Below, piece by piece: positions 47,353-55,288 of a stretch of DNA of 64,000 bases. The DNA comes from Anaerolinea sp. (GTDB lineage: Bacteria; Chloroflexota; Anaerolineae; Anaerolineales; Anaerolineaceae). The position numbers and the translations under genes were made by a program. The stretch lies in the NCBI GenBank assembly GCA_020725865.1, contig DYEC01000011.1:62001-126000 (forward strand), given 5' to 3'. Below the pieces are notes generated by a model that saw only the letters and a program-made list of their open reading frames with translations, was not told the origin of the DNA and made no database searches. The number at the start of each line of letters is the position of its first letter. Position 1 is the stretch's first letter.

Positions 47353-48201
47353 ATGAATATTGAGGTTGTAACCGAAAAAACGCTCCCACGCTTGAGACTG
47401 CCGCAGGTTTCTCGACCGGGCTGGTTTGGCAGGCTGTGGATGCTGGCGGTTTTGCCGGCTCTTTTGTTGTTCACTATCCCTATTCTGACAATTTTTCTCC
47501 GTTTGTCCCTCTCGGATTTTATACACAGTCTACGGCAGGAAGCCGTTCTGCAGGCAGTGCACCTCAGCCTGATCACCTCATTCATCTCACTGTTGGGTAT
47601 CATTCTGTTTGGCACGCCGGCAGCCTATTATCTCTACCGGCGGCGTTCGCGACTGCACTGGCTGGCGGATACGCTGGTGGATTTGCCCACCGTTCTGCCG
47701 CCTGCGGTAGCAGGGGTGGCGCTGTTGCTCGCCTTTGGCAGAGAGGGATTATTCGGCCCGCTGTTGCGTTCATGGGGAATCAGTCTGCCCTTTACAACCG
47801 CAGCGGTAGTGCTGGCGCAAATGTTCATTGCCGCACCCTTCTATATTCGCTCGGCAAGTGTAGGATTCGCAGCGGTGGACTGCGAATTGAAACACGCTGC
47901 AGCGCTGGATGGCGCCAGCCGCTGGCAAATCTTTCGTTACATCGTATTGCCCATGTCTGCCCCGGCGGTTTTAAGTGGCTGTATTCTTGCCTGGTCGCGT
48001 GCATTGGGTGAATTCGGCGCCACGCTGATTTTCGCTGGCAATCTTGCCGGGCGGACGCGCACTATGCCGCTTGCCATCTACATCGGTTTTGAGACCAATT
48101 TGGAGGTTGCTCTGACTCTCTCCGCCATCTTGATTCTGGTCTCCTCATTCGCTTTGTTGATGCTAAAGGTGGTGATAAAGAACCATCTGCCTGCTAACTA
48201 A
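47353..48201 (+). CDS. Molybdate/tungstate ABC transporter permease (ModB-like)
   Basis: This 282-residue membrane protein has about six spans and a binding-protein-dependent transport signature. The cytoplasmic EAA loop reads AALDGASRWQIFRYIVLP, followed by ALGEFGATLIFAGN, the ModB hallmark. Residues 1-25 are a cytoplasmic extension. It imports molybdate or tungstate with the binding protein encoded next. No ATPase (ModC) gene is present in the cluster, so an ATPase must come from elsewhere. Confidence 0.9.
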   Translation: MNIEVVTEKTLPRLRLPQVSRPGWFGRLWMLAVLPALLLFTIPILTIFLRLSLSDFIHSLRQEAVLQAVHLSLITSFISLLGIILFGTPAAYYLYRRRSRLHWLADTLVDLPTVLPPAVAGVALLLAFGREGLFGPLLRSWGISLPFTTAAVVLAQMFIAAPFYIRSASVGFAAVDCELKHAAALDGASRWQIFRYIVLPMSAPAVLSGCILAWSRALGEFGATLIFAGNLAGRTRTMPLAIYIGFETNLEVALTLSAILILVSSFALLMLKVVIKNHLPAN

Positions 48202-48238
48202 GCACACAATAATGATCCGGGTATATTAGAGGCATCCA

Positions 48239-49075
48239 ATGAAAAAATGGCTTTTATGTCTGACGGCGTTGATCTGGCTGGCAGGCTGTACTTCCATCCC
48301 GTCAAATTCTGCTACGCAGACAAGCGATCCAGCCAGCCCGCTGTTTCCCGGGGGCGAACGAACATTACTCGTGTTCGCCGCTACTTCATTGACTGAAGCC
48401 TTTACTGAATTGAGCCAGACATTTGAAGCGCAAATGGGGACGCAGGTTGAGCTGAATTTTGCCAATGCGAACACCCTTTCGGAACAAATCCTTCAGGGTG
48501 CCCCAGCGGATGTTTTTGCCTCCGCTGCCCCTAAATTTATGGATAAGCTGGTGGAAAATGGCAAAGTGGATGCGCAAGCGGGAGAAATCTTCGCCCGCAA
48601 TCAGCTCATCGTCATCCTGCCCAGGCGCAACCCGGCTGATCTGGAAACCCTGCAAGACCTCGCAAAGCCGGGCATTAAACTGGTGATGGGGGCAAAAGAG
48701 GGTCCGCAGGGCGAATATGTAGAGGGCTTTCTGGATAAGGCATCTGCTTCAGCAAATTTTGGCGCCGGCTATAAAGATGCCGTATATTCCAACGTGGTTT
48801 CGTATGAAAGCACGGTCAAAGGTGTGGTCAACAAGGTAGCATTAGGTGAAGCTGATGCCGGTATCGTCTTTGTCACCGATGCTAAAAGTGCGTCGGAAAA
48901 GGTGCTGACCATTTCCATTCCTGATGCGTTCAACGTGGTTGCGGAATACCCCATTGCCCCGCTGAAAAATTCTTCCAACCCGCAACTGGCACGGCAGTTT
49001 GTGGATTTTGTTCTCTCGCCAGAGGGTCAGCAAATTCTGGCAAAGTATGGCTTTCTGCCGCCGGATGGTGATTAA
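48239..49075 (+). CDS. modA: Molybdate-binding lipoprotein (ModA)
   Basis: This 278-residue lipoprotein has lipobox IWLAGC (Cys17). The mature protein follows the ModA pattern LVFAATSLTEAFTELSQTFE, then QILQGAPADVFASAA and SYESTVKGVVNKVALGEADAGIVFVTDA, ending in VLSPEGQQILAKYGFLPP. It captures molybdate or tungstate outside the membrane and delivers it to the permease encoded upstream. An AGAGG site lies before the ATG. Molybdate supply fits the Mo hydroxylases at the left end of the window. Confidence 0.93.
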   Translation: MKKWLLCLTALIWLAGCTSIPSNSATQTSDPASPLFPGGERTLLVFAATSLTEAFTELSQTFEAQMGTQVELNFANANTLSEQILQGAPADVFASAAPKFMDKLVENGKVDAQAGEIFARNQLIVILPRRNPADLETLQDLAKPGIKLVMGAKEGPQGEYVEGFLDKASASANFGAGYKDAVYSNVVSYESTVKGVVNKVALGEADAGIVFVTDAKSASEKVLTISIPDAFNVVAEYPIAPLKNSSNPQLARQFVDFVLSPEGQQILAKYGFLPPDGD

Positions 49076-52298: not shown

Positions 52299-52799
52299 CT
52301 AGATGAAGATAATCTGTGCGCCTTCGGTCATGTCAATAAAATCTGAGGCGGTGACGATATCCTGAACGCCATCCAGAAAGTCCTCTTTCTTCAAGCCCAT
52401 CATATCTACCGTCATCTTACAGGCATAGAGCTTGGCGCCGGCATCTGCCAGCATCTGGATATATTCGCGCACCGGCGGAACGCCCAGTTCATTCATTTTC
52501 TTTTTCATCAACGCGGTGGCGAAAGCGGTCATTCCAGGCAGAACACCCATGATATTTGGAATGCCCAGATTGCCCGGGATGCCCATCATGCTCATCTTCA
52601 TGCTGGTGTTTGCCACTGGTGGGATTTCCAGATGGTCCACGCGCGCCTTGTTGATCAGGTCCAGCCCCCAGAAGGTGAAGAAGATGGTCACATCCACACC
52701 ATTGCCCAGCGCCGCCCAACCCATAATCAGCGCCGGATATGCCATATCCAGATTGCCCTTCGAGCAGATAAAAGCGATTTTTCTTGGTTCGTCAGCCAT
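52299..52799 (-). CDS. DsrE2-like sulfur carrier protein
   Basis: This 166-residue protein belongs to the DsrE/DsrF-like group, DsrE2 branch: FICSKGNLDMAYPALIMGWA at the N-terminus, TIFFTFWGLDLI, a Met/Pro-rich hydrophobic middle and C127 in AKLYACKMTVDMMG. That cysteine is the expected persulfide-carrying residue; C12 is a second candidate. DsrE2 proteins relay sulfane sulfur to TusA or TusE-type partners. It is the last gene of the operon with a TusE/DsrC-like gene (28 bases upstream), sqr and a regulator. Confidence 0.85.
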   Translation of the reverse strand: MADEPRKIAFICSKGNLDMAYPALIMGWAALGNGVDVTIFFTFWGLDLINKARVDHLEIPPVANTSMKMSMMGIPGNLGIPNIMGVLPGMTAFATALMKKKMNELGVPPVREYIQMLADAGAKLYACKMTVDMMGLKKEDFLDGVQDIVTASDFIDMTEGAQIIFI

Positions 52800-52827
52800 T
52801 GTCAGGTTCTCCTTTGATCAAATGAAT

Positions 52828-53145
52828 TTATACACAGCCTTCCGGTTTGCCCAGCCCGGCAATGCGGGCAACTTTCTTGGCGGGTCCTTTGGGGAACAGG
52901 GTGAACAGCTCTTTCGTGGGAACACCTGCGCCAGTGGTAATAGTACGCAGCGTGGGCGCTTTGCCGCTTGCCAAGCCGGCCTGACGGCAAAAATCAATCA
53001 CTTTCCAGTGAGCCTCAGTCAAAGTTTCAATGCCCTCTTCTTTGGCGATTTCGACGGCGATTTCTTTAGTCCAGTCGGCGGGATTGAGCATGAAGCCTTC
53101 TTCGTTCACTTCGACAGTTTTTCCTGCATAAGTACGTGTTGGCAT
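52828..53145 (-). CDS. TusE/DsrC-family sulfur carrier with single C-terminal cysteine
   Basis: This 105-residue protein has the standard length and fold features of TusE/DsrC (NPADWTKEIAVEIAKEEGIE, LTEAHWKVIDFCRQAG, LFTLFPKGPAKKVARIAGL). The flexible arm ends GKPEGCV with the conserved penultimate C104. The second arm cysteine of true DsrC, 11 residues earlier, is A93. It is therefore a one-cysteine TusE-type acceptor and not a substrate of dissimilatory sulfite reductase through a trisulfide. It likely accepts sulfur from the DsrE2 protein next to it. Confidence 0.9.
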   Translation of the reverse strand: MPTRTYAGKTVEVNEEGFMLNPADWTKEIAVEIAKEEGIETLTEAHWKVIDFCRQAGLASGKAPTLRTITTGAGVPTKELFTLFPKGPAKKVARIAGLGKPEGCV

Positions 53146-53181
53146 AGTTTTACCTCCAGATAGAAAATGGTCTCATACAAA

Positions 53182-54444
53182 TCAGGCGGACATGCCAGCC
53201 TGTGATTTCAACAAATCGGTACGCTTGCCGGCCATGCTCATGGTTGCCGGCAGCGGCAGTTTCAAACCGCGCATTAAGATATTCCAGTACATCCAGCTAA
53301 AGCCCAGCTTACCAATGTGGTTTATATAGGATTCCTGCAGCAATGAGAACGGTCCTAGCAAAGGCACCGGGAAACGGCCGGGTAGTGGTTCAACCTTGTA
53401 GTTGAAATCGAGCAGTAAGGCTTTGCCGTCGCCGGATTCGACAAAGCAATTGGCGTGACCGTCAAAGCTTTCTTCCAGTTCTTTGCCCTCGATATATTGC
53501 AGGAAGTTCTCGCTGAACAAGTCAACGGAATAATGCGCCACCGCGCCGGCTTTGGAAGTAGGCAGGTTTGCGGCGTCACCCAGCGCAAAGATATTGGCGT
53601 ATTTTGTAGACAGGAAAGTATGGGGATTGACGGTCACATAATTTAAGTCGTCGCCCAGTCCGGCATTGCCAACGGCTTCAGCGCCCTTGTTAAGCGGCAC
53701 AGTGACCAGCAAATCATACTCCACCTCGCGCTCGTCGTAGGAAATGATCTTCTTTGCGTCCGGGTCGGCGCGTTCGATGTAGAAATCGGGTTCGACAATG
53801 ATATTCTTGCGTTCCAGTAAATCCCCCAGCAGTTTGGAAGCGACCGGCTTGGTAAAAGCACCGGAAAGCGGTGTAGCATATACCAGTTCAACACGGTCGC
53901 GTATGCCGCGCTTGCGGAAGTAAGAATCTGCCAGCATGAGAAATTCCAGCGGCGCCACCGGGCATTTGATCGGGTTCTCAACTACATTGACCACCAGCCG
54001 CCCGCCCTGCCAGTTGCGCAGTTTTTCAGCCAGTGCCACCGCGCCGTCCAATGTGTAGAAGTTGTGGATGGATTTACCCCACTCGTGTTCTGCCAGACCA
54101 GGGGTTTCTTCGGGGTGAATATCTGTGCCGGTGGCAATGATCAGATAATCATAGTCCAGCACATCACCGTTGGTCAGGCGTACACGATTGTGGTCGGGCT
54201 CGATGGCTTCGAGCTTTGATTGAATCAATCGGGCGCGGGAAGGAATGTATTTTGCTTTGGGCTGGATGACATCATCCCTGCCATACGTACCGAAGGGGAT
54301 AAACAGGTATCCGGCCTGATAGTGATGCAGAGGGTCCTGATCCACCAGCGTTATCTGCCATTCATTCATGTTCAGCATGCGGTTGAGACGATTGGCGACC
54401 ATGGTGCCAGCAGTGCCGGCGCCCAGAATTAATAGTTTTTTCAT
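53182..54444 (-). CDS. Sulfide:quinone oxidoreductase-like flavoprotein
   Basis: This 420-residue flavoprotein has the N-terminal FAD motif LGAGTAGTMVANRL, the central VVNVVENPIKCPVAPLEF with C161 and a later GHANCFVESGDGKALLLDF with C333. These two cysteines match the redox-active pair of SQR. FALGDAANLPTSKAG binds FAD, and the C-terminal amphipathic segment would dock it to the membrane. It should oxidise sulfide to polysulfide and reduce quinone. Its ATG overlaps the stop of the regulator gene (ATGA), so the genes are coupled. Confidence 0.88.
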   Translation of the reverse strand: MKKLLILGAGTAGTMVANRLNRMLNMNEWQITLVDQDPLHHYQAGYLFIPFGTYGRDDVIQPKAKYIPSRARLIQSKLEAIEPDHNRVRLTNGDVLDYDYLIIATGTDIHPEETPGLAEHEWGKSIHNFYTLDGAVALAEKLRNWQGGRLVVNVVENPIKCPVAPLEFLMLADSYFRKRGIRDRVELVYATPLSGAFTKPVASKLLGDLLERKNIIVEPDFYIERADPDAKKIISYDEREVEYDLLVTVPLNKGAEAVGNAGLGDDLNYVTVNPHTFLSTKYANIFALGDAANLPTSKAGAVAHYSVDLFSENFLQYIEGKELEESFDGHANCFVESGDGKALLLDFNYKVEPLPGRFPVPLLGPFSLLQESYINHIGKLGFSWMYWNILMRGLKLPLPATMSMAGKRTDLLKSQAGMSA

Positions 54445-55211
54445 GGTACAAACTCCTGAGAGGTTAGTTGAGTTAAACTGGCAATTTGTTTGAGGCGCTT
54501 GATAAAGCCGGTGCGTTCACGCAGGATGCTTTCTACTGCTCGGGCAGCGGCAAAGGGCCAGCCATCTACCTGTGCCTGGCGTTCAGGATCAATGACCAGT
54601 ATGTCAGTTGCTGCTTGAAGCAAAACTTCTTGCGGCAGATTGTGCCGGCGTGCAAGGTTTTGGATAGCGATTACCTGTTGGGCGGTTTCAGGCGCCTGTG
54701 CATAAAACTGACCCGCTAGAAACCAGCCAACCAGGTTGCTTTCGTCCCGAATTGGGGCAGCCAGATACTGCAAGCCGGCGTGGCAGGTGAGATAACCTCT
54801 GCCGGCAGTACCCTGACGGGCAAACGCGCGCCAGGACTCACGGCAAGCTTGTTGCCCGGATGGGCTTTTCAGCACGGTCTGGCAGAAAGCACATGGATGG
54901 CTGGCTTCTGTCAGCGGTTCGCCCTCCATATCCACTACCAAGCCGCTCACCTGACTGACCTCGCTGAAGAGGTCTTGAATGGTCTGCACGCAGTGAACCG
55001 GGAAAATGGTTTCCTCGCCGAGGTTTTCGGGCTGTGCTGGTTCGCTCTTGCCTACTCCAAGCAGCCGCTCAATTTCCTGCGCCGGAAAGCGCCACTGTGC
55101 GCCGACCTTGACACCCTTCAGACGCCCATCGGAAAGCATCCGATAGATGGTGATGCGGTCAACCTTGAGAATATCCTGAACCTGTCGAGTGGTAAGCAAA
55201 TCGTTTATCAT
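54441..55211 (-). CDS. Excisionase-type HTH regulator with PocR sensory domain
   Basis: This 256-residue protein starts with a MerR/excisionase-like helix-turn-helix (residues 3-52: TTRQVQDILKVDRITIYRML, then KGVKVGAQWRFPAQEIERLL). It continues with a PocR domain (about 75-230) that has the cysteine set HPCAFC, QQACRESW and YLTCHAG, ending in YLAAPIRDESNLVGWFLAGQ. PocR domains sense small ligands, and their conserved cysteines may bind metal or react with thiols or sulfane sulfur. As first gene of the sqr operon it is likely a sulfide- or redox-responsive regulator of its own operon. ATG 55211 is chosen for the domain boundary and promoter distance. Confidence 0.82.
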   Translation of the reverse strand: MINDLLTTRQVQDILKVDRITIYRMLSDGRLKGVKVGAQWRFPAQEIERLLGVGKSEPAQPENLGEETIFPVHCVQTIQDLFSEVSQVSGLVVDMEGEPLTEASHPCAFCQTVLKSPSGQQACRESWRAFARQGTAGRGYLTCHAGLQYLAAPIRDESNLVGWFLAGQFYAQAPETAQQVIAIQNLARRHNLPQEVLLQAATDILVIDPERQAQVDGWPFAAARAVESILRERTGFIKRLKQIASLTQLTSQEFVP

Positions 55212-55230
55212 GTTATATCTTGCTATATCA

Positions 55231-55259
55231 TTCACTAGTGAAAAATATAACATGTTATA
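55231..55259 (-). promoter_or_regulatory. Palindromes at the -10 and start of the sulfur operon
   Basis: TATAACATGTTATA (55246-55259) is a perfect 14-bp palindrome covering part of the -10 and spacer. TTCACTAGTGAA (55231-55242) is a perfect 12-bp palindrome at the predicted start site. The half site CATGTTATA recurs at 55209-55217. These are candidate operators for the operon's own HTH regulator. Confidence 0.65.
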
Positions 55260-55272
55260 ACAAAAAAGTCAA
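55244..55272 (-). promoter_or_regulatory. Promoter of the sulfur operon
   Basis: On the minus strand TTGACT (55272-55267), a 17-base spacer and TATATT (55249-55244) predict a start near 55236, about 25 bases before the regulator ATG. Confidence 0.8.
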
Positions 55273-55274
55273 TA

Positions 55275-55288
55275 GTGACAAATGTCAC
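55275..55288 (-). promoter_or_regulatory. CRP/FNR-type operator of the sulfur operon
   Basis: GTGACAAATGTCAC fits the GTGA-N6-TCAC core of CRP/FNR-family sites. Its centre lies about 41-46 bases upstream of the predicted start, the usual position for class II activation. It implies control by a CRP/FNR-like activator in addition to the operon's own regulator. Confidence 0.7.

Follow-up and report, generated by a model that had tools for sequence, protein, structure and literature searches.

A PocR-domain regulator family with a BldC-like head, 10-bp-phased promoter repeats and a close association with sulfur operons, mostly in Chloroflexota

Positions 52299 to 55288 of a 64,000-nucleotide stretch of an Anaerolinea sp. 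genome (contig DYEC01000011.1 of assembly GCA_020725865.1; the whole stretch is called the window below) hold a four-gene minus-strand unit and its promoter. The unit encodes a regulator made of HTH_17 and PocR domains, a type III sulfide:quinone reductase (SQR), a TusE/DsrC-type sulfur carrier and DsrE2 (Table 1). With moderate confidence, we propose that the first protein is a one-component regulator that binds cooperatively to its own repeats, phased by 10 base pairs (bp), and controls its own sulfur operon, probably in response to a reactive sulfur signal. The arrangement is real and conserved. It joins known parts in a way that is new, marked by a sharp operator signature, and we did not find it described in the open-licence literature.

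How widespread is this regulator? We compared 84 distinct proteins of the family, mostly from Chloroflexota, drawn from 111 loci that came from an order sample and a scan of genome contigs; locus L139, where no motif was found, was dropped. The order was sampled at 301 genomes, 58 of which had a match, with 32 full-length matches in 29 genomes. The contig scan yielded 170 confirmed relatives; 80 were kept, again mostly Chloroflexota, and a few are labelled Calditrichota, Ignavibacteriae, Bacteroidota or Pseudomonadota, labels that can be wrong for such bins. As controls we used 31 other PocR-domain proteins from the same order. Among named strains, the PocR-SQR pair is present in Levilinea saccharolytica (L070), Bellilinea caldifistulae (L075) and Thermanaerothrix daxensis (L079); it also occurs in Leptolinea tardivitalis (L119) and Longilinea arvoryzae (L080).

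Members of the family usually lie beside sulfur genes. Homologues of SQR, DsrC/TusE, DsrE/DsrE2, TusA or YeeE occur within 6 kb in 69 of the 84 family loci and in none of the 31 control loci (Fisher test, p = 5e-17, only a guide because the loci share ancestry and the gene set was drawn from family loci). Neighbourhoods were defined with a greedy caller of open reading frames and tblastn searches with representatives from these loci, a procedure that detects only their homologues and is biased towards the family loci that supplied them. SQR is found in 32 loci, 30 of which also encode DsrC and DsrE2, the other two being on short contigs. It was called directly downstream of the regulator in 30 loci, and in 29 of these it starts no more than 24 bp from the regulator's end. 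Another 20 loci encode DsrE2, DsrE, TusA, a GcvH-like protein and NiFe hydrogenase/HdrD-like genes, with six more showing partial forms; seven combine multihaem cytochromes with YeeE, and six contain PsrABC-like genes in some combination. One multihaem cytochrome representative passes the family model of octahaem tetrathionate reductase (567.7 against a cut-off of 375), and the operon type with this cytochrome includes YeeE and rhodanese. A quick tree requires 12 or more changes of operon type, and on it the SQR-linked members form one group (one change; branch support 51). Judged by gene content, the operon types differ yet share sulfur chemistry. The regulator is conserved with sqr, as the first-pass annotation of this DNA had expected, and this, together with the wider tie to sulfur genes, makes a PocR-type sensor of sulfur species plausible.

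A separate observation concerns loci such as L118, L137 and L056, where TusA, DsrE2, DsrE and GcvH-like genes share one operon with a NiFe hydrogenase and a DsrK/HdrD-like protein. From its gene content, such an operon could possibly be a hydrogen-sulfur respiration unit.

The promoters of the family carry a common signature. Upstream of 83 family genes, units of the form TAT[ATG][AG]CA occur 142 times, compared with 13.9 in shuffled sequence, and the spacing between close units is 10, 20 or 30 bp in 87 of 90 pairs. Counted on both strands, 70 pair matches fall within 14.2 kb of promoter DNA and two within the remaining 968 kb of the same loci; 335 kb of DNA from control loci and nine SQR loci lacking PocR hold no match. 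Strict pairs are present at 40 of the 84 family promoters (0.05 expected from shuffles) and pairs with one mismatch at 63 (0.6 expected). When the period of 10 is replaced by 8, 9 or 11 to 13, no locus matches strictly and two to six match with one mismatch. The unit spacing count covers 83 of the 84 promoters, the inverted-unit and GTGA tests 82, and the period test all 84, among them some with shortened upstream DNA and one (L134) that partly consists of undetermined bases (N). In the genome of the window, the strict pattern TATDRCANNNTATDRCA matches at two places only, which are array 1 and array 2 of Table 1.

Across 15 genomes with the PocR-SQR pair, the strict pattern matched 40 times and a reversed control 10 times, and 25 of the 40 matches are at PocR promoters. 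A wide regulon was rejected on this count, as the 15 matches elsewhere are near the control level; one such site (contig C74 of genome G237) lies near GntR-like and aminotransferase-like genes, with no sulfur link visible by eye. The arrays are restricted largely to these promoters, and we infer that they are the targets of the regulator. The two perfect palindromes to which the first-pass annotation had drawn attention do exist. TATAACATGTTATA, rejected as a family operator with inverted unit pairs in only 2 of 82 promoters, is the overlap of direct repeats 10 bp apart, and these repeats, which suit a BldC-type head, replace the palindrome reading. TTCACTAGTGAA is probably not a family feature either, its 12-mer being found in one and its 10-bp core in two of the 84 promoters.

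What kind of protein might recognize such repeats? Homologues begin at the equivalent of position 55211, so that the most likely regulator has 256 residues and starts there (MINDLL...); the ATG at 55253 that opens the longest reading frame was rejected. The protein belongs to the PocR domain family PF10114 and has an HTH_17 head, with no AraC-type helix-turn-helix (HTH) reported by the domain scan; it falls short of the NCBIfam PocR equivalog NF047788 (39.3 bits against 500). An AlphaFold 2 model (mean predicted local distance difference test 91.3, predicted template modelling score 0.72) places a winged head at residues 1-51, a GAF-like domain at about 67-233 and a long helix at the C-terminus. 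Compared by Foldseek with the BldC structure 6amk, the head gives a TM-score (target) of 0.82, a root-mean-square deviation of 1.3 and an E-value of 0.026, and the family profile matches BldC chains in the PDB. R24 of the regulator aligns with Arg30 of BldC, a residue whose role we take from PMC5859096; it is invariant in both alignments, numbering having been matched through an Arg-Trp pair.

The sensor part of the model resembles IclR, CodY and other GAF/roadblock folds (Z about 9-12), a match that speaks to fold and not to function; the list of these matches covers mostly model residues 65-241 and so tells little about the head. By E-value the best Foldseek hits are IclR proteins, with TM-scores of just 0.23-0.32 across the whole model. 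A sequence search for a solved structure of a PocR domain found none, and the PDB profile matches 6uv8, 7sfs and 3w2z were judged to be due to chance.

The position before SQR is not reserved for PocR. Among the 30 SQR loci listed from the 93 SQR genomes are 20 distinct loci without PocR (duplicates counted once); an ArsR-type gene lies 8-93 bp before SQR in 17 of these 20, and in none of 31 PocR-SQR loci. The order with DsrC and DsrE2 is retained in eight of the nine larger loci without PocR, and the ninth stops at a contig end. Two unrelated regulators therefore occupy one slot. In such loci (L238-L246), an ArsR/SmtB-type gene heads an SQR-[DUF1641]-DsrC-DsrE2 operon. Two of the ArsR-type proteins pass the metalloregulator ArsR/SmtB model NF033788 (77.6 and 81.4 bits against 55), and the same two stay below the BigR model (42.2 and 46.5 against 155).

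Taken together, these features suggest the following mechanism. The regulator would combine a BldC-type winged HTH with a PocR sensor domain of GAF-like fold, followed by a long helix at the C-terminus, and would bind cooperatively, head to tail, to TAT(A/T/G)(A/G)CA repeats phased by 10 bp. The arrays lie across the predicted -10 region and reach into the start codon, and binding would autoregulate the operon of SQR, the TusE-type carrier and DsrE2. To judge from site position only, the protein most likely acts as a repressor or a repressor-like switch. Its most likely signal is sulfur in zero-valent or persulfide form, a currency common to the operons that bear the family. Because a BldC-like head and a PocR sensor come together with their own phased repeats and the usual sulfur-gene neighbours, the family probably represents a sulfur sensor of an undescribed kind.

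A number of observations weigh against this interpretation. Fifteen of the 84 loci have no such sulfur gene within reach: nine of these lack every gene that was sought (three of them hold less than 250 bp of downstream DNA), four have only hydrogenase/HdrD-like matches and two only PsrABC-like ones. No repeat pair, even with one mismatch, is present at 21 of the 84 promoters, including four of the six loci with PsrABC-like neighbours. SQR itself occurs in 93 of the 301 genomes and adjoins PocR in just 15. ArsR-type matches directly follow PocR in L037 (999-1307) and L045 (near 9214), both of which contain multihaem cytochromes and YeeE, and L045 also holds, at a distance of about 7 kb from PocR, an SQR led by an ArsR-type gene; PocR and ArsR-type regulators can thus coexist in one locus. 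As for the head, it does not reach the NCBIfam BldC subfamily model NF033787 (19.2 bits against 77), other residues stand at the positions of BldC Lys26 and His46 (I/T and mostly Q, respectively), and the repeats of BldC, as given in PMC5859096, are spaced 9 bp instead of 10.

Could cysteines report the signal? The regulator of the window has five, Cys74, Cys107, Cys110, Cys123 and Cys143. Cys74 is conserved in 83 of 84 family members and in none of the 31 control domains, Cys143 in all 84 members and 27 controls, Cys110 in 76 members and 27 controls, Cys123 in 79 members and 27 controls, and Cys107 in 54 members and eight controls. By these alignments, Cys110, Cys123 and Cys143 are general PocR residues and Cys74 is specific to the family. 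The cysteine set of the first-pass annotation is therefore present, most of it being generic to PocR domains. From this conservation, a two-cysteine sensor formed by Cys74 and Cys143 may be envisaged. We tentatively extend the proposal on this basis: the family would be an undescribed group of reactive-sulfur sensors with a BldC-type filament head and a PocR/GAF domain that gained one additional cysteine (Cys74), persulfidation of Cys74 with Cys143 would make or break the filament on the 10-bp repeats, and the regulator would serve several unrelated operons of sulfur respiration and oxidation, replacing an ArsR-type regulator before SQR. This fuller version is possible, on the low side.

A serious rival, somewhat doubtful in our estimate, is a metal or Fe-S site formed by Cys74, Cys110, Cys123 and Cys143, which would sense redox state, oxygen or the supply of metal or sulfur without persulfide bonds between two cysteines. 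All four residues are present in 75 of the 84 members, which suits such a site and counts against the two-cysteine proposal; each of the three canonical cysteines is found in 27 of the 31 control domains, and Cys74 would complete a fourfold set. The set is nevertheless broken in nine members: three lack Cys110 and five lack Cys110 and Cys123, all eight being SQR-linked and retaining Cys74 and Cys143, and the ninth, L142, lacks Cys74.

PocR is known from the control of propanediol genes, with propanediol as its presumed ligand. Might the present family likewise bind an organic ligand, the association with sulfur genes reflecting habitat or co-regulated carbon and hydrogen metabolism? The IclR- and CodY-like GAF fold of the sensor part is a common small-molecule pocket, and some loci adjoin hydrogenase or oxidase genes only. 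The association with sulfur genes across different enzyme sets, absent from all controls, and the lack of Cys74 in every other PocR domain tested argue in the opposite direction, and we regard an organic ligand as rather improbable.

The predicted sigma-70 promoter (Table 1) is no proof of one, because the region has eight promoter-like sites compared with 3.2 in shuffles. Upstream of it lies the GTGA-N6-TCAC site that the first-pass annotation had assigned to CRP/FNR at a class II position. The site is present and conserved: the GTGA-type element RTGAYATTTRTCACT reaches a score of 9 or 10 (out of 10) at 26 of the 32 SQR-linked loci and of 8 at five more, and the 12-mer TGA[CT]A..T[AG]TCA is found in 22 of the 32 promoters (0.17 in shuffles). 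Relative to the start inferred from the predicted promoter, it is centred near -44/-45, close to a class II position though not exactly at one. No CRP/FNR protein was found in the host genome (3.12 Mb in 26 contigs, 99% complete): the four cyclic nucleotide monophosphate (cNMP)-binding proteins found there lack an HTH domain in Pfam, and PF13545 has ten matches, two of which exceed the cut-off, the three whose reading frames were inspected resembling SorC- or GntR-type proteins. CRP was set aside as an improbable binder of the site. A Rex-like protein is present. The absence of an HTH from the cNMP-binding proteins and the existence of this Rex-like protein indicate that the site probably belongs to another regulator, and Rex is a possible binder. 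TGAYANNTRTCA occurs at 32 places in this genome and its reversed control at three, a frequency that suggests a global regulator, which may be the Rex-like protein of L288. A PocR dimer on the palindrome TATAACATGTTATA and CRP/FNR in a class II position, the model of the first-pass annotation, can thus appeal to the presence of both sequences, the conservation of the GTGA site and the abundance of its core, and is very improbable in view of the rarity of inverted units beside the strict phased direct repeats, the HTH-less cNMP-binding proteins, the few passing PF13545 matches and the Rex-like protein.

Table 1. Genes and promoter elements of the sulfur operon, in positions of the window
Feature	Position	Strand	Details
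GTGA-N6-TCAC site, GTGACAAATGTCAC / pattern GTGACATTTGTCAC	55275..55288	-	conserved in SQR-linked loci
Predicted sigma-70 promoter, TTGACT-17-TATATT	55244..55272	-	consensus scan 10/12
Array 1, TATAACATGTTATAACA, two units 10 bp apart	55246..55262	+	contains TATAACATGTTATA (55246-55259); overlaps predicted spacer and -10
12-bp palindrome TTCACTAGTGAA	55231..55242	.	near inferred transcription start
Array 2, two TAT[ATG][AG]CA units 10 bp apart	55211..55227	-	runs into start codon
HTH_17 (BldC-like)-PocR regulator	54441..55211	-	256 aa from likely start; PF10114 91.2 bits (cut-off 23.9); PF12728 46 bits (cut-off 27)
Type III sulfide:quinone reductase, Cys form (Cys161, Cys333)	53182..54444	-	NF049943 615.4 bits (cut-off 525)
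TusE/DsrC-type sulfur carrier	52828..53145	-	PF04358 112.7 bits; TIGR03342 82.8 (cut-off 53.5)
DsrE2-type sulfur carrier	52299..52799	-	PF13686 130.5 bits (cut-off 25)

An HTH-PocR gene coupled to SQR and followed by a TusE-type carrier and DsrE2, the gene order first reported for this unit, was recovered in full with family-model support for all four genes, and the coupling is visible as an ATGA overlap of the PocR stop and the SQR start (54441-54444). The regulator is the sole PocR domain found in the host genome. Model NF049943 is named for a selenoprotein subtype, and the SQR of the window carries Cys161 and Cys333 instead. Cys104 is the penultimate residue of the TusE/DsrC-type carrier, whose only other cysteine is Cys53. 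The DsrE2 gene stays below the NCBIfam DsrE2 equivalog NF047629 (126.1 bits against 210).

Immediately downstream of the operon and on the same strand lies a gene for a rubrerythrin-like protein (PF02915; 51687-52226), which had no match across the 36 related loci searched. The opposite strand nearby encodes a TauE/SafE-type sulfite exporter family protein (PF01925; 49113-49934) and an adenosine-specific kinase (PF04008; 50002-50520). Reading frames at 47353-49075 resemble, judged by reading only, a molybdate-type ABC permease and its binding protein.

A search of the open-licence literature found no paper describing the regulator under PocR with sulfide, sulfur or Chloroflexi, BldC with sulfide, or SQR with Anaerolineae and ArsR; POCR in PMC3522619 stands for Pacific Ocean coral reefs. 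If the proposal is true, the sulfur metabolism of Anaerolineae and their relatives gains a predicted operator and a predicted sensor, a PocR-type family joins the known sulfur-responsive regulators, direct-repeat binding of the BldC kind gains a ligand-controlled version, and the question of the PocR-domain ligand becomes testable in named strains with the PocR-SQR pair.

How does this regulator compare with known systems? It shares the HTH_17 winged helix and phased direct repeats with BldC of Streptomyces and with RdfS/Xis-type proteins (for RdfS, PMC11963761). BldC, a protein of 68 residues without an effector domain, binds 9-bp AATTXXXX(C) repeats according to PMC5859096; unlike BldC, the regulator has 256 residues and a fused PocR domain. 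With other PF10114 proteins it has in common the PocR domain and the cysteines at 110, 123 and 143, and it differs from PocR in its HTH_17 head, the additional Cys74 and its sulfur operons. SqrR/BigR of the ArsR family, CstR and FisR control sulfide-related genes, as our regulator probably does, and two-cysteine sensing is proposed here by analogy with them (PMC9774590); they have other DNA-binding and sensor domains. The ArsR-type gene before SQR-[DUF1641]-DsrC-DsrE2 in loci without PocR takes the place that the PocR regulator has elsewhere, ahead of the same operon.

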